Source: Streptosporangium becharense
GTDB lineage: Bacteria; Actinomycetota; Actinomycetes; Streptosporangiales; Streptosporangiaceae
Length of the DNA: 64,000 nucleotides
NCBI RefSeq assembly: GCF_014204985.1
Contig: NZ_JACHMP010000001.1
Span: 4,712,001-4,776,000 of the forward strand
Reading direction: 5' to 3'
Of this stretch, positions 39,758 to 54,450 are shown one piece after another. The notes beneath the pieces were generated by a model. It searched no databases. It was given only the letters and a program-made list of their open reading frames with translations, and was not told the origin of the DNA. The stretch's first letter is position 1. Every line of letters begins with the position of its first letter. The position numbers and the translations under genes were made by a program.

Positions 39758-42307
39758 TCACGGGCTCAGCGTCAGGGTGTGGACGGCCGCCTTCCTGACG
39801 GACTCCTCGCGGGAGAGCATGGGGAGGGTTCCGCCGCTCGCCCACAGCGGCGCCTGGTCCCAGTAGTTGTCGTGGAAGGCGTGCCCGGAGGCGCCGGTCA
39901 GGTTGATCCACCGCGACCGGTCCAGGTCCGCGAGGTCCACCACCATGCGCATGGACGGCAGCCAGCTCACCGCGTAGTCCTCCTGGACGTTCCATCCCGC
40001 GGCGTTGACCGCGTCGTCGTTGCCCGCCACGGGGAACGGGCCCCGGTTGAACAGCCACTCGACCGGGGCGATGCCCGAGGTGCCCAGGCTCTGGTGGGTC
40101 AGCCGCAGCGAGTGGAGGTCACCCCAGCGCCAGCCCCCGACGTCCGGGCCGAGACGGGCGCTCAGCTCGTCGTACGCGATGGCCAGGGCCCGCCGCAGCA
40201 TGTCGTCGCGGGTCTCCTTCCCGGGGGTGCTCCTGTCGTCCCAGAACGGGTCGTCGGCCTTGCCGAGCATCACGCGCACGACCTCGAACCAGCGGTCGCC
40301 GCCGGTGGGCTGCGCCTCCTCCGGCAGATCGTCGTCGAAGGTCTCGACCAGCAGGTGCCGCCAGACGGCGTTGAAGTACGCCGCCGGGGCCGAGTCGGCC
40401 CCCTGGGACCGGTCCCAGCCGCGCAGCAGTTCCAGGGCGTCTCGGGCCGGGCCGGTCACGTCGAGGGCCGTCAGCGCGGGCACCAGGAACGGCGCGAGGC
40501 CGTTGCCGGTGTCCAGTTGCAGCGTGCCCATCGCCGCCGCGTCCACCTTCCCGCCGTTCTTCAGCGCCTCGCGGAGCCGGTCGCCGATGCGCTGGGAGCG
40601 GTAGCCGTACGCCCAGTCCTTGGTGAGCATGTGCGGGTAGCGCGCGGGGTCGACGACCGCGTTGTTGGCGGTCACGATGTAGCCCTCCGGCGGGTTGTAG
40701 AGGCTGGGCAGCTCGTCGAAGGGGATCGTCGACCGCCAGGCGTACTCGCCGGTCCAGCCGGGCACCGGCCAGGTTCCGTCACCCCGGGTGCGGACCGGGA
40801 TCCGGCCGGGGGCCTGGTAGCCGATGTTGCCCTCGGTGTCGGCGTAGACGAGGTTCTGCGCGGGCACCTCGAACCCGCTCGCCGCCGCCCGGAACTGCGA
40901 CCAGTCCTGCGCGGCGTTCATGGCGAAGATCGCGTCGGCGGTCCGGCCCGGTTCCAGGGCGGTCCACTTGAGCGCGACCGCGTCGGCCTGTTCGCCGAAG
41001 ACCGCGGCCGAGCCGGGCAACGTGTTCCGCGCGTCCCGCAGGACGTCGGAGATGACCGGTCCGTGCATGGTCTCGCGGACCCGTAGCGGGACGGGGTCGC
41101 CGCCGGCCACCTTGATCGTCTCGGTCCTGGTGGTGAGCGGTCTCCACTCGCCGGTGAACAGGTAGGAGTCGTCCCTGAGCCGTTCCAGGTAGAGGTCGGC
41201 GACGTCCGGGCCGAGGTTGGTGAACCCCCAGGCGATCCTGTCGTTGTGCCCGATGATCACTCCCGGCAGGCCGGAGAAGGTGAAGCCGGTGACGTCGAAC
41301 GGGCACTCGGCACTCCTGGTAAGGCAGTGCAGCCCGGCCTGGTACCAGACGCCGGGAAGGCTCGGCGACAGGTGGGGGTCGTTGGCGAGCAGCGGCTTGC
41401 CGGTGGTGGTGTGCCGGCCGGAGACGACCCACGAGTTCGAGCCGATGCCGCCGCCGCCCGCCGGGTCGCCCATGAGGCCGGGCACCGCGCGGATGGCCTC
41501 GGCCGCTCCGGTGAGCGCCCGGGTGTCCACCTCGCGGGGGCCGCTGTCCGGCTCCTCGTCCTGGTCGAACCCGCGTCCGGTGACCGAGCCGCGGGTGACG
41601 ATCGGCTGGTGGGTCGCATAGGGGTAGCCGGGCCAGAGCTGTTCCACCCGGTCGCGCGGCAGCCTGCTCGCCACGAGCGCCCGGCCGATCTCGTCGGACA
41701 TGTTGGAGCGCAGGTCCCAGGCCATCGCCTTGAGCCAGGCCAGCGAGTCGACCGGGTTCCACGGCTCGGGTTCGTATCCGGGGGCGGTCGCCTTCAGCAG
41801 GACGTATTCGAGACTCCGGCCGGCGAAACCGTCGTTCTCCGTCATCCAGGCGTTCACCCCGCCGGCGTAGGCGTCCAGGTAGCGCCGGGTTCGCTCGGCG
41901 AGCAGGGGCAGTTCCTTCTCGGCCACCCTGCGCCAGCCCATGGTGCGGATCACCTTGTCCTCGGTGAGGGTCGCCGCACCGAACATCTCCGACAGCCGTC
42001 CGGCGGTCACGTGGCGGCGGAAGTCCATCTCGAAGAAGCGGTCCTGCGCGTGCACGTACCCCTGGGCCAGGAACAGGTCCTCCGGGGAGTCGGCGTAGAT
42101 ATGCGGGATGCCGTTTTTATCGCGATATACGGTGACTTTTCCCTTCAGTCCCTTCACGGTGAGCTCACCGGCGAGCTGGGGGAAGGAGGCGCGCACGCCC
42201 CACACGCCGCCTCCCGCGAGGGACAGCCCGAACACCGCGAGAAGGGTGATCGCCTGAGCGAGCCAGGCGAGTGGACGGGGCATCCAGGCGTACGGCCGTA
42301 ACCTCAC
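39758..42307 (-). CDS. penicillin acylase-family Ntn hydrolase (S45)
   Basis: 849 residues from GTG42307, with AGGAGGT upstream. A membrane helix near the N-terminus (about 15-35) suggests export or anchoring. The alpha chain region leads to the self-cleavage site before Ser290 in GIG-SNSW, the expected N-terminal nucleophile of the beta chain, followed by V-V-S-G. Later conserved segments (GNIGYQAPGRIPVR, ANNAVVDP) match the beta chain. Such enzymes cleave acyl-amide bonds, including N-acyl homoserine lactones and beta-lactam side chains; the substrate here is unknown. Confidence 0.88.
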   Translation of the reverse strand: MRLRPYAWMPRPLAWLAQAITLLAVFGLSLAGGGVWGVRASFPQLAGELTVKGLKGKVTVYRDKNGIPHIYADSPEDLFLAQGYVHAQDRFFEMDFRRHVTAGRLSEMFGAATLTEDKVIRTMGWRRVAEKELPLLAERTRRYLDAYAGGVNAWMTENDGFAGRSLEYVLLKATAPGYEPEPWNPVDSLAWLKAMAWDLRSNMSDEIGRALVASRLPRDRVEQLWPGYPYATHQPIVTRGSVTGRGFDQDEEPDSGPREVDTRALTGAAEAIRAVPGLMGDPAGGGGIGSNSWVVSGRHTTTGKPLLANDPHLSPSLPGVWYQAGLHCLTRSAECPFDVTGFTFSGLPGVIIGHNDRIAWGFTNLGPDVADLYLERLRDDSYLFTGEWRPLTTRTETIKVAGGDPVPLRVRETMHGPVISDVLRDARNTLPGSAAVFGEQADAVALKWTALEPGRTADAIFAMNAAQDWSQFRAAASGFEVPAQNLVYADTEGNIGYQAPGRIPVRTRGDGTWPVPGWTGEYAWRSTIPFDELPSLYNPPEGYIVTANNAVVDPARYPHMLTKDWAYGYRSQRIGDRLREALKNGGKVDAAAMGTLQLDTGNGLAPFLVPALTALDVTGPARDALELLRGWDRSQGADSAPAAYFNAVWRHLLVETFDDDLPEEAQPTGGDRWFEVVRVMLGKADDPFWDDRSTPGKETRDDMLRRALAIAYDELSARLGPDVGGWRWGDLHSLRLTHQSLGTSGIAPVEWLFNRGPFPVAGNDDAVNAAGWNVQEDYAVSWLPSMRMVVDLADLDRSRWINLTGASGHAFHDNYWDQAPLWASGGTLPMLSREESVRKAAVHTLTLSP

Positions 42308-42432
42308 GAAGACCTCCTAGGCGACATGCTCCCGCAAGTGTGGCCGAGTGAGGCTGAGTTCGGCAGTGCCCGGCATCAAGGACATCGCGCCCGCCGGGCC
42401 GCGTATCGCCGTCTCGGGCGCCGCTCCGGCGG

Positions 42433-43728
42433 CTACCCGGGCAGGCTCCCGGCCCTGCCGATGTCACAGGAGAGGTCGAGCCCGAGAACCTGGTCGAGAT
42501 GGAGGAACGTCTCGAAGCGGGCCCCCGGCGCGACGGAGCCGTCGCGTTCCAGCTCACGCAGCAGCCGCAGCGCCAGCGGGGTGTCGAGGTCGTCGTCGAA
42601 GGCGGCCTCGACCCGGGCGACCCACTCGGCGGGCATCGGGACGCTCGGCGACTCCGACCACTCGGCGACACGGGCCCGCCAGCGGCGCAGAGTCAGGTCG
42701 GCGGCCCGCAGGGTCTCCCAGGTGAGGTTCACCGGCCGCCGGTGGTGGTGCTCCAGGAACGCCAGCCGCACGGCCAGCGGGTCGAGACCCGCGCCCGTCA
42801 CGTCCTTGAGCAGCACCGCGTCGCCACCGGACTCCGGTATCCCGTGCCCGTCGAAGAGCACGTTCTCACTGTGGACCCAGTGGCGCACCACCTCGTGCCC
42901 GGCGGCGGCGTCGCACTGCGCGCGTCCGTACTCGTGGTGCGGGAAACGGAGATCGACCCCGCCGGTGTGCACGTCGACGCGCTCGCCGAGGAACCGCAGC
43001 GACATGACCGAGCACCCGAGGTGCCGGCCGGGAAGACCCCGGCCCCAGGGTGCCTCCCAGGCCGGCCCCCGGTCGGCGGCCCGCCACAGCACCCAGTCGG
43101 CGGGGGACCGTCCGCCGGCCCCGGCCCTGGCGTCGCCGGGCCGGCGACCCGGCCCGGCACCGTCGAGCCGGTCGCCGGAGACCTCCTCGTACGAGGAGAC
43201 CTCCCCGTACGAGGGGAAGGAGGCCGCGTCGAAGAAGACCGACCCGTCGGGGGCCGGGTAGGCGTGTCCCTTCCCGATCAGCTCGGCGACCAGCTCGATC
43301 ATCGGTTCGATCGTCTCGGTCGCCCGCGGGGAGTGCTCGGGCGGCCTGATGTTCAGCGCGGTCGCGTCCGCCGTGAACGCGTCCTCGTGGAGCCGTGCCG
43401 CCTCGTGGAGCCGCGCCGTCTCCGGCGCGTCACGCCCCTCGGCACGCGCCTGGGAGAGGACCTCGCCCGCCGGGGCCGCACCCGCCGGGCCGGTGCCGGC
43501 GTCATCGGCCGGACGCCCCACGTCGATGATGTCGCGGCAGACGACGACCCGCAGCCGCCGCCGCTCACCGACCCGTCTGATCAGGTCCGACAGCAGGTGC
43601 GAGCGGAGGTCGCCCAGGTGGGCGAACCGGTGGACCGCCGGACCGCAGGTGCGCATCCGCAACGCGCGGGCCCCCTCGGGGACGATCCGCTCCACCTGAC
43701 CGGTCCGGGTGTCATACAGCCGCAGCAC
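42433..43728 (-). CDS. degenerate cysteinyl-tRNA synthetase-like protein
   Basis: 431 residues from GTG43728. The CysRS/MshC framework is clear: Cys28 in CGPAVH, then a Cys in the WHxEC-equivalent position, HTGGVDLRFPHHE with zinc-binding histidines, and VNLTWETLR-type helices. The class I HIGH motif is H37-L-G-D40 and the KMSKS loop is replaced by a PESGGDAVLLKD segment, so adenylate formation is doubtful. A low-complexity insert lies near residues 175-210. It is neither a standard CysS nor a standard MshC. TAGGCT (43741-43736) ends 7 nt before the start. It may use cysteine or a tRNA-like ligand in a non-canonical way. Confidence 0.8.
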   Translation of the reverse strand: MLRLYDTRTGQVERIVPEGARALRMRTCGPAVHRFAHLGDLRSHLLSDLIRRVGERRRLRVVVCRDIIDVGRPADDAGTGPAGAAPAGEVLSQARAEGRDAPETARLHEAARLHEDAFTADATALNIRPPEHSPRATETIEPMIELVAELIGKGHAYPAPDGSVFFDAASFPSYGEVSSYEEVSGDRLDGAGPGRRPGDARAGAGGRSPADWVLWRAADRGPAWEAPWGRGLPGRHLGCSVMSLRFLGERVDVHTGGVDLRFPHHEYGRAQCDAAAGHEVVRHWVHSENVLFDGHGIPESGGDAVLLKDVTGAGLDPLAVRLAFLEHHHRRPVNLTWETLRAADLTLRRWRARVAEWSESPSVPMPAEWVARVEAAFDDDLDTPLALRLLRELERDGSVAPGARFETFLHLDQVLGLDLSCDIGRAGSLPG

Positions 43729-43746
43729 GCCTCCGAGCCTACGCGC

Positions 43747-45594
43747 TCAGGCCCCGCCCTCGAGGAAGGAGAGGATGTCGCGGTCGCCCCGGTCACGCAG
43801 GCGGGCGAGGACCTCCTCCCGCGTGCACCCGTCGTGCAGGCCGATCCGGGCGCCGATCAGACGCAGACCCTCGGCCTCCGACGCCACCGGAGCGGTGTAG
43901 CCGATCAGGTGCAGCGCCCGGTTCAGCGGCGGGACGGCCGGCGACGCGGCGGGCAGGTAGCGGGTCAGCAGTTCGCCGCCGTCGGAGACCGTCAGGAAGA
44001 CGTGGTCACCCTCGGAGGCGTTCGCGGCGATCAGCACCGGGCGGATGGAACCCATGGTCGGCTGGTTGTGCCAGCTGATCACCACGTCGCCGGCGGGGGT
44101 GGACGCGGTGAGCTGACCGCCGGGCGCCATGCCGAGGTGCGCGGCGAAACCGGTCGGCAGCGGCGACCCCGAGCCGCGCAGGTGCTCGGCGTTGACGTCC
44201 ACCCGGTGCCACCAGCGCCCGTCGCGGCTGCGGAAGCAACGGCGGGTCTCCGAGACGTCACGGCGCGGCTGGTAACCGGACTGCTCGGTGCCGGCCACCC
44301 GGATCCACCCGCGCTGGGTGCGCTCGAAGCCGGGGCCGCCCGCGTAGGCGCGGACCGAGCTCTCGCTCACGTCGTAGCGGCTGGTGAGGTTCGTGACGAT
44401 GGTGTTGACCGACGCCTCGCCGTTGGCCCGCTCGATCTCCCGGGCGATCATCTCCCGGATGCCCAGGTACTGTTCGCCGCCCCAGCGCGCCAGCCCGTAC
44501 TTGTTCCGGTCGACCCGCAGGAACCGGTCGTCGGCGGTGAGCTGGTTGCGGATGCCGACGAGGCTGTAGTCCTCGCCGATGCGCTCCTGGATCTCCTCGG
44601 GCGTCAGCGGGCCGCCCGCCACCGCGAGCACGGCCTCGGCCTTGTCGTTGACGCTGCGCGGCCACTGCACCACGTGGTTCTCCAGCACCCGGAGCTGGGG
44701 CACGGCGATGAGCCAGCGCTCGGCCACGTCCTCGCGGATGCCGAGCTGGCTGGCCAGGGTGATGGCCTCCTCCAGGGGGCGGGGCCCGTCGCCGAACAGC
44801 TGCCGGGTCTTCTCCCTGAGCTCGTCGGCCCCGCCGGCGACCAGCCAGCCGTCGACCTGCTCGTAACCGCTCAGCATGGTCCGGACGAACCGCCAGGCGG
44901 GGATGCCCAGCGTGGACAGCTCGGTGCGGTGCCACGGCACCGCCGCGGCGAGGTCGTCGGCCGGCACGGCGGAACCGAGCCGGCCACGCAACCAGGACAC
45001 GTGGGCGACCAGCGGCGCCGCGTCCTCGGTGGCCAGCCACGCCTCCACGTGGTCGCGCAGGTCCCGCTCTATCTGCCGGATGCGTTCCCTGGTCACCGAG
45101 AACCGCTGGGCCAGGTCGTCGAGCGTGGCCCGCTGGGAGGCGTACAGCCGGTCTCTGGCGATGGCCCGCTGCCGGTCGTCCAGGGCGGCGAAGACCTCGT
45201 CGATCACCTCGGGCAGCGGCCGGTCCGGGCGGGACGGACGCATCCGGGAGACGCTCTCCTCGGTGACCGGTTCGAGCAGCCGCTCGAACACGGAGGTGAA
45301 GAGCTTGTGCACCGTCTCGCGGCCCAGCCCCTCGGGCGTGTGCACGCTCGACGCCGGGTCGGAGAACCTGAGCAGGGGCAGGACGTCACCGAGCATCAGG
45401 TGTCCCCAGCACGTCAGCGCCAGGTCGGTCAGGCGTCCGGCGACCTCGGACGTCCCGATGGTCGAGCAGGCCCTGTCGAGCGGCAGCGCCTGCCACCACG
45501 CCTCAGGGAGGCGGGGGTCGGTTGCGATCGGCGCTACCTGGCCGGGAGAGGTCCAGCGCAGGGGTGGCGCGATGTCGCTCAGGCTGAGGTTCAT
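43747..45594 (-). CDS. sigma-region-4-like DNA-binding protein
   Basis: 615 residues from ATG45594. Residues 1-110 form an N-terminal domain shared with the 47.7-kb gene. Residues 138-178 are a sigma-70 region-4-like HTH (ATLDDLAQRFSVTRERIRQIE at 156-176) without region 2, so it is not a complete sigma factor. A middle helical domain (about 200-300), a winged-helix-like region (about 305-420) and a C-terminal domain with RRCFRSRDGRWW and LRDRGDRDILSFL follow. It is the last gene of a three-gene minus-strand cassette. TATATT at 45622-45617 may give it a separate promoter. Confidence 0.75.
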   Translation of the reverse strand: MNLSLSDIAPPLRWTSPGQVAPIATDPRLPEAWWQALPLDRACSTIGTSEVAGRLTDLALTCWGHLMLGDVLPLLRFSDPASSVHTPEGLGRETVHKLFTSVFERLLEPVTEESVSRMRPSRPDRPLPEVIDEVFAALDDRQRAIARDRLYASQRATLDDLAQRFSVTRERIRQIERDLRDHVEAWLATEDAAPLVAHVSWLRGRLGSAVPADDLAAAVPWHRTELSTLGIPAWRFVRTMLSGYEQVDGWLVAGGADELREKTRQLFGDGPRPLEEAITLASQLGIREDVAERWLIAVPQLRVLENHVVQWPRSVNDKAEAVLAVAGGPLTPEEIQERIGEDYSLVGIRNQLTADDRFLRVDRNKYGLARWGGEQYLGIREMIAREIERANGEASVNTIVTNLTSRYDVSESSVRAYAGGPGFERTQRGWIRVAGTEQSGYQPRRDVSETRRCFRSRDGRWWHRVDVNAEHLRGSGSPLPTGFAAHLGMAPGGQLTASTPAGDVVISWHNQPTMGSIRPVLIAANASEGDHVFLTVSDGGELLTRYLPAASPAVPPLNRALHLIGYTAPVASEAEGLRLIGARIGLHDGCTREEVLARLRDRGDRDILSFLEGGA

Positions 45595-45643
45595 TGAGGT
45601 CCAACCGGCAAAGGGGAATATATCCGCAGTTCAGACTATGTGA

Positions 45644-47701
45644 TCAGGTGGGAAGGAAGGGACTGGCCCGTCCGGAGTGGGATACGTAGAGAGATTCCAG
45701 CGCCCGGGTGCACGCGACGTAGAGCAGGCCGCGCTCCCGCTGGAGGTCGTGCGCTCTGGCGGCCGGGTCCTCCCCGGCCGGGGTCAGTGAGTCGGGGTCG
45801 GGCACGATCCCGTCGGCCACGCCGATCACGGCGACCCGCCGGAACTCCAGCCCCTTCATGCCGTGCAGTGTCGTCACGCGCACCCCCAGATCGCGCAGGG
45901 CGGCCCGCGCGTCGCGCACGAGCCCGGTGGTCCTGGCGGCCACCGCGATCTCCCCGGGTGGCACACCGTCCCGTATCCACTCTCTCACCTGCGCCACCAG
46001 CCCCGTCAGCTCATCCCGCGGAGAATCGTAGGCGCGGACCACCGGCCGCGGACCGTGCCGGGTGGCGCGGAAACCGTACAGCTCCTGCACCCCATTGACC
46101 AGCCCGTCGGCCGGGCCGCCGCCGCGCAGCCGCACCCCCCAGGAGAGGATCTCCTGGGGCAGCCGGTACGACACCTGGAGCTGCCACCGGACGGCGTCGA
46201 TCCCGACCGAGGCCAGCGCCACCCGCGTGTCGAAGATCCGCTGATGCGGGTCGCCGACGATGAACATGTCGTCGCAGGCGTGCGGCACCGCCACGCGCAG
46301 CAGCCGCCACTGCGCGGGATGCAGGTCCTGCGCCTCGTCCACCACGATGTGCCGGTACGGCTCCCGGGCGGGTTCCGCCTCCTCCAGCAGGTCACCGGTC
46401 GTCCGGCCGAGCAGCACCGACGCCTCGGCGGCCAGCTGGAGCAGGGTACGCCGGCCGCGTTCCCGCAGCTGCTCGGTGACGTGCTCGACGGCCCGCCAGA
46501 CGGTCTTCCGCTCCTCGTCGGACAGCTCGACGCTGCGGCCGGGACGGGGGGCGACGAGGTACTCCTCCAGGGTCCGCAGGTTCTGCGCGAGCACCACCTG
46601 CTCCCATTCGCGCAGCAGGAACGCCGGGCTGTGCCCGGTGTCGGACTCCTCCCACAGCGCGGTCAGCTCCGTGGCCCCCACCAGCGACGGCGGGCGTCCC
46701 TCCGCCTCGGCGACGATGCGGTGCGCCAGCCGGTCCACGTTGCCGACCTCGATCCGCTTGCGGACCGTCTCGTCCTCGACCAGGACGTCGAGCTTGGCCG
46801 CGAGGTCGGCGCTCAGCCCCTGGGAGAAGGTGACGAGCAGGATCTGCCCGCTGCCGCGCCTGGCCAGGTGGGCCGCCCGGTGCAGTGCGACGAGTGTCTT
46901 GCCGGTGCCCGCGCCGCCGGTGACCAGCGTCGGCTGCGGGTAGGACTCCCAGTGCGCCAGCCGGTGCTGCGGCGGGTGCAGGAAGACGCACCAGCCGGGT
47001 GCCTCCAGCACCCGGTCGAGCTCGCCGGGGTGAGCGGTGAAGACCGCCCGGTCGGGACTGCGCAGCAGCGCGGCGCCGAAGTCCTCCGGGTTGACCGGCT
47101 CGGAGTCGGGGGGGAGGGCCCGGCAGTTCTCCAGTTCGCGCCGGGCCCCGGTCATCGACTCCCCCCTGGCCAGCGCGGCCAGCGGTTCGTACTGGGTCGG
47201 CGGCAGCAGCGATTCGAGCGCCTCCAGGGTCAGCTCGTCGGTGATCTGCCTGACCAGCGGCAGGAACCGGCCGTCGATGCCCAGTTCGGCCAGGTCACCG
47301 TCGCGGACGTCGGCGAACAGCCGGGTGGGGGTCGCCTCGGCGGCCCTGCGCATCGCGGGACGCACCCGGTCGAGCGCCACCGCGTCCCACATCTCGACCA
47401 CGCCCAGCGCCGTGTTGACGCCGAACCGGTAGCGCTGCGCGTACGCCCACGCCTCCGCGTCCGGCAGGACCGTCAGCAGCCAGTAGACGTCCCGTTGCCT
47501 GACCACGACGCCCCGGTACCCGTCGGCCAGCCTGAGCGAGGCGACCCGGGGATCCCTGGCCCCCGTGACCCGTTCGGGGTGCGGCGCTCCCTCCGCGTCC
47601 TGCAGGAACCTGCGCGCCGAGAGCACGACGTCGCGGCGCACCGGCTCGGGCAGGGTGCTGAGTTCGACGGGGAACTCCGGGGAGACGGCGAGGCGGGGCA
47701 T
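45644..47701 (-). CDS. UvrD-type SF1 helicase with RelE-like N-terminal domain
   Basis: 685 residues from ATG47701, 3 nt after the preceding gene. Residues 1-100 resemble the RelE/ParE fold (VRRDVVLSARRFLQD, then GARDPRVASLRL and RGVVVRQ, then a VYWLLTVLPDAEAW strand), a domain known at the N-terminus of some actinobacterial SF1 helicases. The helicase has Walker A GGAGTGKT (262-269), DEAQD (455-459), a VGDPHQRIF motif III, and later QVSYRLPQ, TLHGMKGLEF and VACTRA motifs. All core ATPase motifs are intact. It lies between two paralogous DNA-binding-type proteins. Confidence 0.87.
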   Translation of the reverse strand: MPRLAVSPEFPVELSTLPEPVRRDVVLSARRFLQDAEGAPHPERVTGARDPRVASLRLADGYRGVVVRQRDVYWLLTVLPDAEAWAYAQRYRFGVNTALGVVEMWDAVALDRVRPAMRRAAEATPTRLFADVRDGDLAELGIDGRFLPLVRQITDELTLEALESLLPPTQYEPLAALARGESMTGARRELENCRALPPDSEPVNPEDFGAALLRSPDRAVFTAHPGELDRVLEAPGWCVFLHPPQHRLAHWESYPQPTLVTGGAGTGKTLVALHRAAHLARRGSGQILLVTFSQGLSADLAAKLDVLVEDETVRKRIEVGNVDRLAHRIVAEAEGRPPSLVGATELTALWEESDTGHSPAFLLREWEQVVLAQNLRTLEEYLVAPRPGRSVELSDEERKTVWRAVEHVTEQLRERGRRTLLQLAAEASVLLGRTTGDLLEEAEPAREPYRHIVVDEAQDLHPAQWRLLRVAVPHACDDMFIVGDPHQRIFDTRVALASVGIDAVRWQLQVSYRLPQEILSWGVRLRGGGPADGLVNGVQELYGFRATRHGPRPVVRAYDSPRDELTGLVAQVREWIRDGVPPGEIAVAARTTGLVRDARAALRDLGVRVTTLHGMKGLEFRRVAVIGVADGIVPDPDSLTPAGEDPAARAHDLQRERGLLYVACTRALESLYVSHSGRASPFLPT

Positions 47702-47704
47702 GGG

Positions 47705-50374
47705 CTAGGCCAACAGTGACAGGAGATCGCGGTCACCGCGTTCTCGCAGACGGACGAGGAGGTCGGGCATCGCCACCGGGCTCGGCATGCCGACCCGGGT
47801 GGCGATGACCCGTCCGGCCTGTTCGGGGGTGCCTCCCGAGGCGGTGTAACCGACCAGGCGCAACGCCCGCGCCGTGTTCTCCACCTCGGCCGTCGCGGCC
47901 GGCAGGTGCCTGGCCCGCAGCACCCCCTCATCCGACAGGGTGAGGAACAGGTGACTGCCCTCCCTGGCCCCCACGTCCGCCAGGAGAACCGCGAGCGACT
48001 CCAGGGCGGGCCGTTCCCGCCAGTCGAGGACCATGTCCCCGACCGCGCTCGTGACCGTGCGGCGGCTGCCCGGCGTCATCCCCAGGTACGCCGCGAACCC
48101 GCTGGGCAGCGGGCATTCGCCACCCTGGAGGTGCTCGGCGGTGACGTCGATCCGGAGCCACCACCGGCCGTCCGGCTGCCGGAAGCAGCGCCGGGTCAGT
48201 GAGACGTCCTTCAACGGACGGAACGCCGCCCTGCCCTGCTCCCCGTCGGGTTCGCCGCCCTGCCGCGCGGGGGGCAGCCCGGCGGCGTGAGGCATCTCCG
48301 CGGGGGGATTCTCCACGGCGGCCTCCCCCGGGGAGGGCTCCTCCGCCGGGAGGCCACTCGTGGAGGGCTCCTCCGCGGGGAGGGCGTCCGTGGAGGGCTT
48401 CTCGGCGGGGAGAGCACCCGTGGGCTTCTCCGGGGGGAGAGTAGTACCCATGGGCTTCTCCGTGGGGAGACCACCCGCGGAGGGCTTCTTCACGGCGGCC
48501 TCCCCCAGGGAGGGGTCCTCCGTGGGGAGGGCACTCGTGGGGGGCTTCTCCGTGGTGAGGGCCGGAGCCCCGCCCGCCCGCTGGGGGACGCGCTCGCCTG
48601 CGCCGAGGATACGGAGCTGGGGCACGTTCTCCAGCCACGCCTTGGACACCTCAGGGTGGATGCCCAGGGAGGAGACCATGTCGAGGGCCTTGCTGATGGT
48701 CAGCGGCGGCTTGGCCCCGCTGATCATGTCGCGCGTGCGGTGACGCAGTTCCGTGATGTCACCCTCGACCAGCCACTCGTCGACCAGGTGGTAGCCCGGC
48801 ATGCTGGCCAGCACGAACTGCCAGGCCGGAACGTCCAGGGAACGGAGCTCGCGGGTGTGCCAGTCGGCGGCCCCGATCAACCGCTCCCGGGGCGCCGCCT
48901 TGCCGAGGAGCCGTTCGACCTCCTCCAGGTGCTCCCGGTACGGCGCCGCCTCGTCGGAGGCGATCCATTCCGCGAGCTCCCGGCGCAGGTCCGCCTCGAT
49001 GTCGACGATGACCTGCGGCGGTACGGCGAACAGCTTGGCCAGCTGATCCACCGCCGCCGGGGTGTCGCTGAACACGATGTTCTGCGCCACGGCCCAGCGC
49101 TTGTCCTCGGTACCGGCGAAGACACCGTCCAGCAGCGCGTGCAGGTCCGCCGGCGCCACGGGAGCCCCGGCCCCGGCCGCGAGCGGCTCCGCCTCCTCCC
49201 GCGGTCCCGGTACGGCTCCGGCGCCCACGCCCATCGGAGCCTGCGCGTCCTGGTGTACGGGAGCGTCCGCCGAGGCCGCGGCGTCCTCGGCGTCCTCGGC
49301 TTCTTCGGTGTCCGCAGCTTCCTCGGTGTTGTTTCGGGTGCCGGGGTCAGGCTGGGTTTCGGGGGCGGGCTGGTCTTCGGCGAGCGCCTGATCCTCGATG
49401 CGGTCCCGAGGTTCGGCCTCTTCACCGGCCTCGGCGACTCCCTGAACCTCGGCCTCCTCTCGAACCTCGGCCTCCTCCCGGGCCTCGGTGTCTCCCCGGG
49501 CCTCGGCATCCCGGGCTTCCGTGTCGCGGGCGCCGTCGTCCACCGTCTCCCTGGTGTGGGACGGCGCGTCGGCACCGTCCACCGCGTTGGCGTTGTCCAC
49601 CTCGGCGCCGTCGGCGGCGTCGTCGGCCCGTGCCTCTGCCGGAGCGTCGACCTCCGCGAGCGCCTGCTTCTCCGCCTCGGCCGGCTTCTCGACCGCCTCC
49701 ATCCCGCTTACGGAGCCGGCTTCCGCAGGTGCCTGCTGCCCCGCGTCCGCGTCCGCTTCGGCGTTCCCGTCCGCCTGTGCGTCCGCGTCCGCTTCGGCGT
49801 TCCCGTCCGCCTCGGCCCCGAGCCGTGCTGCGGGCGGCACGCCCCCGACCGTGTGCAGTGCTTCTTCGGGTGCTTCTTCGGGCGTGGGCGGTGCGACCTC
49901 TCGCATGACGGCTTCCGGCACGGCGACGGCCGGGGCGGGCAGGGGAGCCGGGGCCGGGGCGGCGGGGGCCGGGTGGGCCAGCTGGGAGAAGACCGCCGCG
50001 AAGAGGGTGTGCAGCAGAGGCACCGGCTGAATGAACGGCTGGTCGCGCAGATCATGGCCGGTGAGCGCGAGCAGTCCCGTCCAGGAGCCCGTACGGTCCA
50101 GGGCGATCGCGGTGCAGGGCTCGTCGGCCTCGTCGGGGTCCAGAACGTGCAGGGCGGGCAGGACGTCGCCCACGGCCGCGGCGGGCCAGTGGAGCAGGGT
50201 GACCTCGGTGAGGATCTCCGCCAGCCTCTCCGGGCCCAGCACGGCGAGCACCCTGGTCATCGGCAGACTCCGCCACCAGGCGCCCGGAAGACCGGGTTGT
50301 TCACGCAGAAGTGGGATCGTGGCCGCGTCGCTCCAACGTAGCGGCGGCACGAGGTCACTCAGACTGAAGTTCAT
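47705..50374 (-). CDS. large paralogue of the sigma4-like protein with acidic and repeat tracts
   Basis: 889 residues from ATG50374, with AAGGGA upstream. N-terminus (MNFSLSDLVPPLRW), middle domain (HTRELRSLDVPAWQFVLASM) and C-terminus (RRCFRQPDGRWWLRIDV, LRERGDRDLLSLLA) align with the 43.7-kb protein. The segment aligned with its sigma-4 HTH (about 430-470) has lost the RERIRQIE recognition helix. Residues about 180-390 are an acidic Ala/Glu/Asp tract, and 603-704 a decapeptide repeat that replaces the winged-helix region. It is first in the cassette. Probably a non-DNA-binding or differently binding paralogue. Confidence 0.7.
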   Translation of the reverse strand: MNFSLSDLVPPLRWSDAATIPLLREQPGLPGAWWRSLPMTRVLAVLGPERLAEILTEVTLLHWPAAAVGDVLPALHVLDPDEADEPCTAIALDRTGSWTGLLALTGHDLRDQPFIQPVPLLHTLFAAVFSQLAHPAPAAPAPAPLPAPAVAVPEAVMREVAPPTPEEAPEEALHTVGGVPPAARLGAEADGNAEADADAQADGNAEADADAGQQAPAEAGSVSGMEAVEKPAEAEKQALAEVDAPAEARADDAADGAEVDNANAVDGADAPSHTRETVDDGARDTEARDAEARGDTEAREEAEVREEAEVQGVAEAGEEAEPRDRIEDQALAEDQPAPETQPDPGTRNNTEEAADTEEAEDAEDAAASADAPVHQDAQAPMGVGAGAVPGPREEAEPLAAGAGAPVAPADLHALLDGVFAGTEDKRWAVAQNIVFSDTPAAVDQLAKLFAVPPQVIVDIEADLRRELAEWIASDEAAPYREHLEEVERLLGKAAPRERLIGAADWHTRELRSLDVPAWQFVLASMPGYHLVDEWLVEGDITELRHRTRDMISGAKPPLTISKALDMVSSLGIHPEVSKAWLENVPQLRILGAGERVPQRAGGAPALTTEKPPTSALPTEDPSLGEAAVKKPSAGGLPTEKPMGTTLPPEKPTGALPAEKPSTDALPAEEPSTSGLPAEEPSPGEAAVENPPAEMPHAAGLPPARQGGEPDGEQGRAAFRPLKDVSLTRRCFRQPDGRWWLRIDVTAEHLQGGECPLPSGFAAYLGMTPGSRRTVTSAVGDMVLDWRERPALESLAVLLADVGAREGSHLFLTLSDEGVLRARHLPAATAEVENTARALRLVGYTASGGTPEQAGRVIATRVGMPSPVAMPDLLVRLRERGDRDLLSLLA
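48260..48565 (-). repeat. coding minisatellite, roughly 30-bp units
   Basis: Imperfect 27-33-bp units encode a (A/T)-E-(K/E)-P-(S/T)-x-x-x-L-P decapeptide about seven times. It replaces the winged-helix part found in the paralogue. Confidence 0.75.
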
Positions 50375-50485
50375 TCGTTCCCTTCACCAGCCCCTCAAGC
50401 CGCCCGAGTCACTCCATGTGGCCGGAGAACGAGACTCATGGAACAGACCATATTCTGGCAAATCGCCCCGGCGTGTTGGGTCGGT

Positions 50486-51241
50486 TCAGCGACGTACGGC
50501 CGCGAACCTGAGCCGGACGTAGTCGGCCATCCAGCCGGTCTCCCGCCGCAGGGCGGGGGCCGCCAGTTCGTTCACCCGGGCCAGCAACGAGTCGACCATA
50601 TCCCCGGGCACCTGGCGGAGCAGCGAACCGGCGAACATCCGCACCCAGTCGGCGGCTCCGTCCGGGCACTGGTCAAGGGGGGTCGGCCGGTCGAAGTACT
50701 CCAGCAGGCGGACGGTGAAGCCGCCCTTCTCCAGTCGTGTGGCGTACTCGGCGGGGCTGGGGAAATACCACGGCAGGTCGGGTTCGGGCAGCCCGAACTC
50801 CCGCCAGGCGGTGGACAGCGCCGCCGTCAGCGCGGCGCAGTTGCCCGCGCCGCCCATCTCGGCGACGAACCGCCCGCCCGGGACCAGGGCCTCCCGGACG
50901 TTGGCGATCACCGCGTCCGGTTCGCGGCCCATCCAGTGCAGCGCCGCGTTGGAGAACACCGCGTCGCAGGGCTGGGCCACCGTGAAGTCGCGGCCGTCTC
51001 CCACGGTGAACTCAAGCCCGGGGTGGAGCGTCAGCGCCTTGTCGATCATGGCGGGAGACCTGTCGATCCCCAGGACGTGGACGCCCCGGGAGGCGATCTC
51101 GGCGGTCAGCACCCCCGTGCCGCAGCCGAGGTCGACGACGCGCTCCCCGGGCTGCGGGTCGAGAAGCTCGACCAGGGGGGCGCCGTGGGCCGAGACGTAT
51201 CCGAAGCTGCTGTCATAGGCGCGAGCGTTCCACCTCATCAT
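50486..51241 (-). CDS. class I SAM-dependent methyltransferase, Tam-like
   Basis: 251 residues from ATG51241; a TTG at 51262 would add seven residues but is unlikely. Motif I VVDLGCGTGVLT is at about residues 35-46, followed by GIDRSPAMI and SNAALHW, then LVPGGRFVAEMGG. This pattern, particularly SNAALHWM, resembles trans-aconitate 2-methyltransferase and related enzymes. No context gene identifies the substrate. It is divergent from nothing nearby and lies on the same strand as the cassette, 111 bp before its first gene. Confidence 0.85.
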   Translation of the reverse strand: MMRWNARAYDSSFGYVSAHGAPLVELLDPQPGERVVDLGCGTGVLTAEIASRGVHVLGIDRSPAMIDKALTLHPGLEFTVGDGRDFTVAQPCDAVFSNAALHWMGREPDAVIANVREALVPGGRFVAEMGGAGNCAALTAALSTAWREFGLPEPDLPWYFPSPAEYATRLEKGGFTVRLLEYFDRPTPLDQCPDGAADWVRMFAGSLLRQVPGDMVDSLLARVNELAAPALRRETGWMADYVRLRFAAVRR

Positions 51242-51367
51242 GCTCGGGGTGTCGTAGCGCAAGACGATCAGCTCACATTCCGAGACGCCGCGGCCTCTTG
51301 TCGATGCTCTGCAGACACTTTAGAGCCTCGGGGAAGTCGCGACATATCAGTCTCAGCGGCACCGGAC

Positions 51368-52429
51368 CTACCCGATTTTCTCCGCCCACGCGCGCTTGAG
51401 ATACCCCCTGGCCGTGTCGATCTCGGCGACGGTGAGGACCACGGGCTCGGCGTTCGCGGTGGGCAGCTTCGCCGCGAGCTCCGTGTCGAGCGTGCCGCGC
51501 ATCCGCAGGGCCTCCATCCTGGCCGGACGGGCGTAGCCCTTCAAGAAGAGGTTCTGGCCCCGGTCCGAGAAGAGGAACTCCTGCCAGAGGCGGGCCGCCG
51601 CCGGATGTGGAGCCTTCTTGCTGATGGCCTGGACGTAGTACGAGCCGAGCACGGCGTCGCGGGGGATCGCGACCTTCCACGCCTTGTTCCCGGCCGCCCG
51701 CGCCGCGTTGTGGTAGTCCCAGTCGACGATGACCGAGGCGGCCTGCGCGCTGGCCGCGAGGTTGCCCGCGCTCTTCAACCGGCCGAAGAACTCCACGCCC
51801 CGTTCGGCCCTGGCCTCGCCCCCCTTGATCGAGGCGGCCATCACCCCGTTGAAGGCCGCCGAGACCTGCCGGGGGTCGCCGGCCAGCGAGACCTTGTAGC
51901 CCGGTTTGAGCAGGTCGGAGAAGGACGACGGGGCCGGGGCGCTGTCCGGCCGGTAACCGATGGACATGTAGCCGCCGTACCCGGCGTACCAGTTGCCCCG
52001 CTGGTCCTTGAGGTGGTCGGGGATGTCCTGCCACCCCTGGACCTTGTACGGCGCGAACGCGCCGGCGTTGGCCACGGCGACGTCCATGCTCAGGTCGAAC
52101 ACGTCCGGCTTGAGAGAACCGGCGACCTCGATCGCCCTGGCGCTGCTCGCGTCCGGCTCAACCTGGTTGACCTTGATGCCGTACTCGTCCGCGAACGCGT
52201 CGATGATCTCGCCGTAGTTCACCCAGTCGCGCGGCAGCGCGATCACGGTGAGCGAGCCCTCCTTCCTGGCCGCCTCGACGAGGCGGTCCATCGTGGAGAA
52301 GCCCTCCTGCAGGGAGGCCGCGCGGGCGTTCACCGGCGGCAGGTGCGGGGTCTCGGTAGCCGGGGCGCCACATCCGGCGATCGTGGCCGTGAGGATCACG
52401 GCGGCTGCGGCGCTGGTGCGTACGGTCAC
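51368..52429 (-). CDS. ABC-type solute-binding lipoprotein, orphan
   Basis: 353 residues from GTG52429. A lipoprotein signal peptide ends in T-I-A-G-C20, so the mature protein is lipid-anchored at Cys20 on the outer face of the membrane. The remainder is a type-2 periplasmic binding fold (LTVIALPRDWVNYGEIIDAF, DVFDLSMDVA, YGGYMSIGY, SVIVDWDY) similar to Fe(III)/spermidine/2-aminoethylphosphonate binding proteins. No permease or ATPase gene is adjacent, so it must work with a transporter elsewhere or serve as a receptor. The ligand is not evident. Confidence 0.85.
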   Translation of the reverse strand: MTVRTSAAAAVILTATIAGCGAPATETPHLPPVNARAASLQEGFSTMDRLVEAARKEGSLTVIALPRDWVNYGEIIDAFADEYGIKVNQVEPDASSARAIEVAGSLKPDVFDLSMDVAVANAGAFAPYKVQGWQDIPDHLKDQRGNWYAGYGGYMSIGYRPDSAPAPSSFSDLLKPGYKVSLAGDPRQVSAAFNGVMAASIKGGEARAERGVEFFGRLKSAGNLAASAQAASVIVDWDYHNAARAAGNKAWKVAIPRDAVLGSYYVQAISKKAPHPAAARLWQEFLFSDRGQNLFLKGYARPARMEALRMRGTLDTELAAKLPTANAEPVVLTVAEIDTARGYLKRAWAEKIG

Positions 52430-52536
52430 GAGGCGTATACTCCCCGTGACGGGATCGCCCGTCGAGCAGGCGCGGCTTTTCTTGGGGAACGGCTTACGCG
52501 CGTCCGGGCCCGGGGGTCACCCGTGAGGCCCGGCGG

Positions 52537-52770
52537 TCACCCGCGAGGAGGCGGCGACGCCACGATCCTGGCGGCCACGAGTGTCTCCGCCTCGATCTCG
52601 ACCAGGGTCCCGTCGCGCTTGCGCACTCCCAGCACGCCGTCGCGCCAGAACTCCAGCACCCCCACGGCGTCACGGAAGCCGTCCGGGCAACGCCTGCGGG
52701 TGGTGACTCTCCTACCCACGTCGGAAGGGGTTAGGCTGACAGTGAGGCGAGCTCCGAAACCGTGGTTCAC
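52537..52770 (-). CDS. stand-alone SH3-like domain protein, Rv0428c N-domain type
   Basis: 77 residues from GTG52770. The sequence LTPSDVGRRVTTRRR, then FRDAVGVLEFW and VEIEAETLVAARIV, resembles the SH3-like beta-barrel at the N-terminus of Rv0428c-type GNAT acetyltransferases, but no acetyltransferase follows. It may be a separated domain, complemented by an acetyltransferase elsewhere, or an independent binding module. It is divergent from fdxA with 110 bp between the starts. Confidence 0.6.
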   Translation of the reverse strand: MNHGFGARLTVSLTPSDVGRRVTTRRRCPDGFRDAVGVLEFWRDGVLGVRKRDGTLVEIEAETLVAARIVASPPPRG

Positions 52771-52880
52771 CGTCTTTTGCCCCCTCCCGTTTCAGACACC
52801 TGGCGGGCACGGCAATACTAGGGCGTAGCAACCCGCGGTCGAAGTCGTGCCTAGGTGCGTAAAGGAAGAAGGAGCCCGAG

Positions 52881-53207
52881 GTGACCTACGTCATCGCGCA
52901 GCCTTGCGTGGACGTCCTGGACAAGGCGTGCATCGAGGAGTGCCCCGTCGATTGCATCTACGAGGGCGAGCGCATGCTCTACATCCACCCCGACGAGTGC
53001 GTGGACTGCGGTGCGTGCGAGCCCGTCTGCCCCGTAGAGGCGATCTTCTACGAGGACGACCTTCCCGAGCAGTGGAAGGACTTCTACAAGGCGAACGTGG
53101 ACTTCTTCGAGGACCTCGGGTCGCCCGGCGGCGCCTCCAAGGTCGGCAAGATCGCCAAGGACCACCCGGTCGTCGCGGCGCTGCCGCCGCAGGCCGAGGG
53201 GCACTGA
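52881..53207 (+). CDS. fdxA: 7Fe ferredoxin
   Basis: 108 residues from GTG52881, with GGAG at 52871-52874. Cys9, Cys17, Cys21 and Cys25, together with Cys40, Cys43, Cys46 and Cys50, form the [3Fe-4S]/[4Fe-4S] pattern of FdxA ferredoxins; the [16 protein letters not shown] segment is diagnostic. The C-terminal extension is usual for the actinobacterial class. It is a cytoplasmic low-potential electron carrier. The gene is followed by a perfect 19-bp hairpin and then dapC, an order widely kept in actinobacteria. Confidence 0.95.
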
Positions 53208-53211
53208 ACAT

Positions 53212-53268
53212 CACCCGCGTCCCCGGACGGACCGGGCGGCCCGTGACGGCCGTCCGGGGACGCGGGTG
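53212..53268. terminator. long hairpin after fdxA
   Basis: A perfect 19-bp stem (arms 53212-53230 and 53250-53268) enclosing a 19-nt loop, starting 4 nt after the fdxA stop. It probably stops or attenuates transcription into dapC. Confidence 0.75.
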
Positions 53269-53370
53269 GAGCCTTGTTCCCAGGGTTCCCAGGGTTCCCC
53301 GGGGCCGGGCTCCGACGAGAACACCGTCCTCCCGGTCCACCGGGCCGGGAGTCGCCATTCGGGGAGAACT

Positions 53371-54450
53371 GTGATCGGCCTGCCGGACTTTCCGTGGGAT
53401 CGGCTCACGCCGCTGAAGCAACTGGCGGCGTCGCATCCCGACGGGATCGTCGACCTGTCGGTGGGCACACCCGTCGACCCCGTCCCCGCCGTCGTGCGCC
53501 AGGCGCTCGCCGACGCCGCCGACAGTCCGGGCTACCCGCTGACCTACGGCACCGAACGCCTGCGCTCGGCCGCGGCCGGATGGCTGCGCCGCAGGCACGG
53601 CGTCGACCTCGACCCGGCGGGTGTGCTGCCGCTGATCGGCTCCAAGGAGTTCGTGGCCTGGCTGCCGACGCTCCTCGGAATCGGTTCCGGGCAGCGCGTC
53701 GTCTTCCCCGAGCTGGCCTACCCCACCTACGACGTGGGCGCCCGCCTCGCCGGCGCCGAGTCGTACGCCACCGACGGGCTGCTCGCGCTCGGCCCCGAGC
53801 AGGTGCCGCTGGTCTGGGTCAACTCCCCGTCCAACCCGACCGGCAAGGTGCTGCCGGCCGACCACCTGCGCAAGGTCGTCTCCTGGGCACGCGAGCGCGG
53901 CGCGGTCGTGGCGTCCGACGAGTGCTACATCGAGCTGGGCTGGGAGGAGCAGCCGGTCTCGATCCTGCACCCGGACGTCTGCGGCGGCTCCCACGAGGGC
54001 CTGCTCGCGGTGCACTCCCTCTCCAAGCGTTCCAATCTGGCCGGGTACCGCGCGGGGTTCGTCGCGGGCGACCCCGTCCTCGTCCGGCGCCTGCTGGAGG
54101 TCCGCAAACACGCCGGGATGATGGTGCCCGGCCCGGTTCAGGCGGCGATGGCCGTGGCCCTCGACGACGACGAGCACGCCGAAGAGCAGCGAGCCCGCTA
54201 CGCCGCCCGCCGCGCCGCGCTCCGGCCTGCCTTGGAGGGTGCGGGCTGGAAGATCGAACACTCCGCCGCGGGCCTGTATCTCTGGGCGTCCGACGGGTCC
54301 GGCTGCTGGGACCAGGTCCGTGCCCTCGCCGAGAAGGGCATCCTGGTCGCGCCGGGCGACTTCTACGGCCAGGCCGGCAGCGGGCATGTCCGCGTCGCCG
54401 TGACGGCCGTCGACGAACGTATCGATGCGGCGGTGCGCCGCCTCCAGTAG
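53371..54450 (+). CDS. dapC: N-succinyldiaminopimelate aminotransferase
   Basis: 359 residues from GTG53371, with GGGGAG at 53361-53366; the upstream in-frame ATG lies in the terminator loop region. It is a class I/II PLP aminotransferase: NSPSNPTGK, SDECY for the pyridine ring, Lys219 in SLSKRSN as the Schiff-base lysine, and GYRAGFV. Position directly after fdxA identifies actinobacterial DapC, which transaminates N-succinyl-2-amino-6-ketopimelate in lysine and diaminopimelate synthesis. dapD and dapE lie 2-3 kb downstream, so three steps of the pathway are grouped. Confidence 0.9.
   Translation: MIGLPDFPWDRLTPLKQLAASHPDGIVDLSVGTPVDPVPAVVRQALADAADSPGYPLTYGTERLRSAAAGWLRRRHGVDLDPAGVLPLIGSKEFVAWLPTLLGIGSGQRVVFPELAYPTYDVGARLAGAESYATDGLLALGPEQVPLVWVNSPSNPTGKVLPADHLRKVVSWARERGAVVASDECYIELGWEEQPVSILHPDVCGGSHEGLLAVHSLSKRSNLAGYRAGFVAGDPVLVRRLLEVRKHAGMMVPGPVQAAMAVALDDDEHAEEQRARYAARRAALRPALEGAGWKIEHSAAGLYLWASDGSGCWDQVRALAEKGILVAPGDFYGQAGSGHVRVAVTAVDERIDAAVRRLQ

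Follow-up and report, generated by a model that had tools for sequence, protein, structure and literature searches.

Fusions of a RelE-like domain to a UvrD-type helicase have been described before, as has each of the domains involved. The available part of PMC12458937 describes ArmD of ARMADA Type II as a GajB-like UvrD helicase with a RelE-like domain at its N-terminus, and reports that ArmD, Walker A motif included, is needed for ARMADA defence. Two further systems that are relevant here are PbeABCD, which is phosphorothioate-linked (PMC6459918 and PMC10853773, accessible portions), and HelD of B. subtilis, which acts with delta in the recycling of RNA polymerase (PMC7749165, accessible portion). 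Here we describe a three-gene cassette in a 64,000-nucleotide stretch of the 7.8 Mb genome of Streptosporangium becharense (C1:4712001-4776000), hereafter the window, in which a RelE-UvrD helicase of superfamily 1 (SF1) lies between two paralogous proteins related to sigma factor region 4 (sigma4). The cassette is on the minus strand and is transcribed in the order big (889 amino acids, aa), helicase (685 aa) and compact (615 aa), with gaps of 3 nucleotides (nt) between big and helicase and 49 nt between helicase and compact (Table 1). The first-pass annotation of the window had noted two paralogues flanking an intact SF1 helicase and the short first gap, all of which are confirmed by the open reading frames (ORFs), by the sister clades that the paralogues form and by the helicase motifs that are kept.

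The cassette combines two protein lineages that are found elsewhere in anti-phage loci, namely an ArmD/DISARM-neighbour-type RelE-UvrD helicase and a sigma4-winged-helix DNA-binding protein. Our tentative reading, which we prefer while placing it somewhat short of an even chance, is that the cassette is a defence-type module that has settled in the chromosome and whose sigma4 proteins bring the ATPase to promoter DNA or RNA polymerase. What is new is the trio, its fixed place, the altered RelE domain and a 19-base-pair (bp) element; no description of the first three was found among the papers listed by searches of the open-licence literature. The earlier statement that no characterised system has this set of genes holds for the trio among those papers, but the RelE-UvrD fusion itself is known as ArmD of ARMADA (PMC12458937, available part). 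The words UvrD and helicase are both lacking in the main text of a survey of multidomain RelE/ParE toxins (PMC11980606).

The three genes are tightly linked at a single chromosomal place. Genome samples comprised 120 genomes of the family, 201 at the level of the order and 398 of the phylum, and the best 80 of 125 cassette loci from named genomes were fetched; genes at fetched loci were called with a simple script, and the counts 48, 47 and 97 and those for genera were tallied by hand. An orthologue of compact (at least 66% identity) occurs in 48 of the 120 family genomes, and the helicase gene adjoins it in 47 of these (G068 is one of them, with compact divided between contigs). G034 (locus L237) differs: here compact is intact, big is gone, the helicase is a 3' remnant and the 19-bp element is gone. 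At the level of the order, compact scores above 1000 bits in 97 of 201 genomes, and it does so in all sampled genomes of three genera: 15/15 in the window's own genus (g1), 26/26 in g4 and 14/14 in g65. The order big-helicase-compact and the strand are kept in all 80 Streptosporangiaceae loci (big is cut by a contig end in three), with a helicase-compact distance of 50-77 nt between match ends, or 35-71 nt between ORFs. The co-occurrence and adjacency of the three genes, which the first-pass annotation had proposed as a check, are thus found in many members of the family. In G025, a big-type gene stands alone at the matching place.

The flanks are constant as well. Upstream, where the contig allows, lie a methyltransferase (75/75 loci) and a solute-binding protein (75/75), followed by divergent ferredoxin (75/75) and aminotransferase (DapC; 74/75) genes; downstream lie a cysteinyl-tRNA-synthetase-like (cysS) paralogue (77/79) and then a penicillin-acylase-like gene (40/66), the acylase, ferredoxin and aminotransferase names being assigned by eye from the ORF list. 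Thirteen gene families recur beside other ('solo') RelE-UvrD helicases, and none of them was found in the 80 cassette loci by tblastn with up to four representatives each, a test in which some families (F10, F11) are unannotated or weakly matched and which covers these 13 families rather than defence genes at large. A defence-island setting for the cassette is rejected because of the constant flanks and the absence of the 13 families. We read the cassette as a vertically inherited chromosomal locus, given its single syntenic place and tight linkage. A phage origin was also considered and set aside, since no relative turned up, as judged by pattern, when viral contigs were scanned with the alignment of compact and with the helicase.

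The link to conflict systems that the first-pass annotation had drawn from the gene architecture stands through relatives only, and a defence-island setting is not supported. We compared 47 other RelE-UvrD genes (longer than 560 aa, at 44 fetched loci), which were drawn from the better-scoring matches and not at random; at one of the 44 loci, L265, the helicase gene is lacking in the script's gene calls. Families labelled DrmA, DrmB, DrmC, DrmD, DrmMI or DruE lie at most five genes from 24 of the 47, the labels having been assigned per blast cluster on the basis of a single PADLOC-scanned representative, and the homologues near DISARM/Druantia-type families show 33-47% identity. Cassette helicases form one clade (SH-aLRT 100) in a quick tree, their nearest sister set consists of seven untagged solo genes, and the defence-adjacent helicases are spread over several parts of the tree.

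Homologues of the sigma4 proteins are rare beyond the family, with matches above 80 bits in 12 of the 398 phylum-sample genomes. PbeA- and PbeC-like genes adjoin six of 21 divergent sigma4 homologue loci (L080, L220, L222, L229, L233 and L236). PADLOC confirms Pbe at L080 and L222, and the PbeC-like match at L229 has only 22% identity; at L220 and L229 the sigma4 gene was missed by the gene caller and its place was taken from the homologue search of the phylum sample, and at L195, a contig of 3.6 kb, the neighbourhood could not be assessed. At L080, L222, L233 and L236 the sigma4-winged-helix gene stands directly before the PbeA-like gene, in operons with PbeC-like genes; the accessible portions of PMC6459918 and PMC10853773 make no mention of such a protein. 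In the sigma4 tree, which contains program-flagged long branches and some open forks, compact (14 rows) and big (15 rows) each form one clade and are mutual sisters (89/78); we read compact and big as products of a duplication of one sigma4-winged-helix protein. Beyond them come a suf-side clade, then the solo type and then the Pbe type. The suf-side branch is a third kind of homologue, which stands alone, in further genera of the family, beside a gene cluster that is called suf-like because of the sizes and order of its genes. Four of its members (L075 gene 12, L076 gene 12, L077 gene 7 and L085 gene 12) are big-like, have no helicase beside them and have lost the recognition helix; L079, also on the suf side, retains part of that helix, which is altered in some rows of the solo and Pbe types. 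Since the trees are unrooted, a derivation of the cassette from defence systems is something that we infer and that they do not themselves show.

Of particular interest is the N-terminal domain of the helicase, which can confidently be modelled as RelE-like, as the first-pass annotation had proposed. This assignment rests on structure prediction and structure search because the Pfam scan of the region gave nothing useful and a sequence profile of residues 1-240 matched no PDB chain. Positions 81-82 are H-D in none of 81 cassette helicases, against 38 of the 47 other RelE-UvrD helicases and 24/24 of the defence-adjacent ones; R54 is likewise present in 0/81, against 40/47 and 20/24. Because the 81 helicases are one clade, these absences count as one loss and not as 81. 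Residues D50, R52, R57, N96 and E103 are common to both groups. From their conservation, and from work on the RelE family, the H, D and R are putatively catalytic, and a domain without the residues that defence-adjacent relatives keep makes a toxin role the less likely reading. The median dN/dS (ratio of nonsynonymous to synonymous substitution rates) is 0.24 for the RelE part and 0.32 for the helicase core, in a sample of 28 loci (27 titled Nonomuraea and one [Actinomadura] parvosata) and about 150 sampled pairs. As judged from these substitution rates, the cassette RelE domain is under purifying selection, constrained yet changed, and so is not simply decaying. The C-terminal Tudor extension by which UvrD/PcrA bind RNA polymerase beyond motif VI is lacking, as motif VI lies at residues 656-667 and the protein ends at 685.

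Compact shares with primary sigma factors a region 4 whose recognition-helix letters are identical to those of two SigA chains, and V167-R180 is invariant across 30 aligned rows. In contrast to primary sigma factors, it has winged-helix units and its own C-terminal domain in place of region 2. The claim that one paralogue has a sigma-region-4 helix-turn-helix without region 2 is therefore sustained: PF04545 is above its cut-off, and Sigma70_r2 was not found in compact or big in a Pfam scan at E values up to 1. Within the winged-helix array, an aligner applied to the compact model gives structural matches at residues 256-312 and 372-436, and a HARE-HTH-like unit at 314-371 matches PF05066 at 4.1e-4 and 21.1 bits, under its cut-off of 25.9. 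RNA polymerase delta has a HARE-type winged helix and an acidic tail. A B3-like fold for the C-terminal domain was an impression by eye only and is not adopted.

In big, the recognition helix is lost in 15 of 15 rows of its clade, in agreement with what had been noted for the window copy. Its N-terminal domain is strongly constrained (median dN/dS 0.13), and no Pfam match was found for the window copy of this domain; profile scans with curated families gave none above cut-off for big. The Pro/Glu/Lys tract occupies the position of compact's third and fourth winged helices, and residues 609-697 give a low-complexity match to Extensin_1 that is far under its cut-off. Visual inspection, and a Pfam match below cut-off in one Pbe-type homologue, had suggested an alpha-CTD-like helix-hairpin domain, but this is unsupported for big.

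The non-coding parts of the cassette are also conserved. The element TTTGCCAGACTATGGTCTG (the window copy has one A) sits 13-116 nt upstream of the called start of big and is present with at most three mismatches in 75 of 77 loci, the remaining two having 4 and 7. At one mismatch or fewer, a single copy is present in each of 40 of the 120 family genomes, namely 40 of the 48 cassette genomes and 0 of the 72 others, whereas a reversed-sequence control has 0 occurrences; eight cassette genomes lack it at this threshold. It is on the contig of compact in 38 of the 40, the other two being split assemblies. Within the element are a TANNNT hexamer and an inverted repeat, CAGAC-TATG-GTCTG, that is imperfectly conserved. 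The core of the helicase-compact gap is single-copy in its own genome, and the only promoter-like match in the region falls within this gap (1 found against 0.1 expected); the folding of the gap is no better than that of shuffles (z 0.76). No Rfam element was found at the gathering threshold in positions 42000-53500. The cassette is probably controlled from its own 19-bp element, and its own proteins are perhaps the regulators that act through it.

Comparison with the known systems underlines the differences. The helicase shares the arrangement of ArmD, with a RelE-like domain N-terminal to a UvrD/GajB-like motor, but the ARMADA Type II operon also carries a BrxHII-like helicase, a PglX-like methylase and a YprA-like helicase, as far as the available part of PMC12458937 goes. 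Searches of the 80 cassette loci for DrmD/BrxHII-like, DruE/YprA-like and DrmMI-type methylase families gave no match, PglX as such not being among the queries. Unlike ArmD as described there, the cassette has one fixed locus, sigma4 partners and a RelE domain without residues that most relatives keep. The adjacent DrmA and DrmB of DISARM occur beside helicase relatives but in none of the 80 cassette loci, and neither DrmC nor the DruE-type family of Druantia, both of which lie near helicase relatives, was found there. With PbeABCD the likeness is the sigma4-winged-helix homologue in Pbe operons; the cassette genes are not themselves PbeA or PbeC, and the helicase is SF1, against the PLD-SF2 enzyme in the accessible descriptions of PbeABCD. 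No Pbe family was found among the matches listed for the three cassette genes (for the helicase, the best 25 of 50), and the search of the 80 loci did not include Pbe genes. HelD-delta, in the accessible portion of PMC7749165, resembles the cassette as a helicase-like SF1 motor with a partner protein; HelD/HelR membership is rejected by NCBIfam scores of 59 against a cut-off of 419 and 65.5 against 750 bits.

Under the favoured reading of a settled defence-type module, compact would read -35-like promoter DNA and/or dock on the RNA polymerase flap through sigma4, with big as partner or scaffold. The RelE fold may now serve as a platform for docking or for binding nucleic acid rather than as a toxin, and the UvrD motor may clear or remodel complexes at compact-bound sites, for which HelD with delta is a working analogy and not a claim of membership. 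Alternatively, the cassette could still serve in anti-phage defence, now from a fixed chromosomal site: incoming DNA or phage promoters would be recognised by compact and big, RelE would act as the sensor, and the helicase would block replication or transcription. The DISARM/Druantia-type and Pbe genes beside the relatives favour this, as does the requirement for ArmD in ARMADA (PMC12458937, available part), but the constant flanks without any of the 13 families, the presence of compact in every sampled genome of several genera and its 77-93% identity, against patchy divergent homologues in 12 of 398 phylum genomes, and the lost HD and R54 argue the other way, and we consider it unlikely though worth keeping in view.

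It is also rather improbable that compact (and big) are transcription factors with a small regulon, the helicase a separate repair or transcription-repair enzyme and RelE vestigial. Several DNA-binding-type units in compact, its survival without the other two genes in G034 and the conserved, promoter-like gap before it would suit such a division of labour; the adjacency kept in 47 of 48 genomes, the purifying selection on the RelE part and the lack of an intact recognition helix in big would not. An active toxin-antitoxin-like unit, with RelE as RNase and compact or big as antitoxin and autorepressor on the 19-bp element, would fit the RelE fold and the partly palindromic element, present in single copy and overlapping a possible -10 before the unit, which resembles autoregulated operons. 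The putative catalytic residues are lacking in 81/81, the window's ORF list has no small antitoxin-sized gene within the cassette, and compact persists in G034 in the absence of the RelE part, all of which make this explanation very improbable; a RelBE-type pair is rejected on architecture, the protein being a 685-aa fusion and not a small free-standing toxin with a paired antitoxin. Returning to the settled module, a more specific and doubtful version is a tamed defence helicase, in which RelE, without the residues that its defence-linked relatives keep, serves as adaptor and the sigma4 protein, with its -35-reading helix intact but no role as a sigma factor, steers an ATP-driven clearing machine to promoters or RNA polymerase, self-regulated through one element per genome. 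If the module reading is true, the cassette would show how an anti-phage type of helicase comes to occupy one constant chromosomal position in many genera while retaining a modified toxin fold. It also lends itself to testing whether a sigma-region-4 protein that is no sigma factor can guide a motor, and the single-copy element and the natural partial losses make it tractable.

Table 1. Features of the cassette (positions in the window; residue numbers refer to each protein)
Feature	Position	Strand	Basis
19-bp element TTTGCCAGAATATGGTCTG upstream of big	50444..50462	-	single copy in own genome at ≤3 mismatches
big, first gene, 889-aa paralogue	47705..50374	-	ORF
big conserved N-terminal domain, 1-135	49970..50374	-	21-row alignment
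big acidic low-complexity filler, about 136-408, species-variable	49151..49969	-	sequence, length spread
big sigma4-like and middle region, 409-591, recognition helix lost	48602..49150	-	profile match 137 bits, residues
big Pro/Glu/Lys repeat tract, about 600-700	48275..48577	-	sequence
big C-terminal domain common to compact, 713-888	47711..48238	-	profile match 194 bits, 48% identity
helicase, 685-aa RelE-UvrD fusion	45644..47701	-	PF00580 3.3e-22, PF13361 6.9e-12
RelE/ParE-fold domain, helicase 1-106, without the H-D pair and R54 of most relatives	47384..47701	-	structure prediction, alignment
Walker A GGAGTGKT, helicase 262-269	46895..46918	-	motif kept 81/81
Walker B VDEAQD, helicase 454-459	46325..46342	-	kept with small variants 81/81
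helicase-compact gap, 49 nt, conserved, promoter-like TATATT	45595..45643	-	
compact, 615-aa sigma4 and winged-helix protein	43747..45594	-	ORF, domain matches, alignment, predicted structure
compact sigma region 4, 124-200	44995..45225	-	PF04545 29.7 bits vs cut-off 24.1
compact recognition helix VTRERIRQIE, 167-176	45067..45096	-	alignment
compact array of winged-helix-like units, 209-437	44284..44970	-	predicted secondary structure
compact conserved C-terminal domain, 438-611	43762..44283	-	alignment; low model confidence (pLDDT) about 440-510

The downstream neighbour of the cassette is a divergent CysRS/MshC-like paralogue of 431 aa (window 42433-43728, minus strand) that falls under the NCBIfam cut-offs of both families. 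Among the solo helicase loci, L083, L268, L269 and L270 each carry a pair of RelE-UvrD genes separated by about 10 to 13 kb, and the small neighbour families F7, F13, F19, F22 and F23 recur there, possibly as an unnamed island. At L245 and L248, drmA, drmB and drmC on one strand are followed by a PD-T4-6-like kinase gene, a RelE-UvrD helicase and a HEC-05-like gene, an arrangement that is a candidate for an extended DISARM type.
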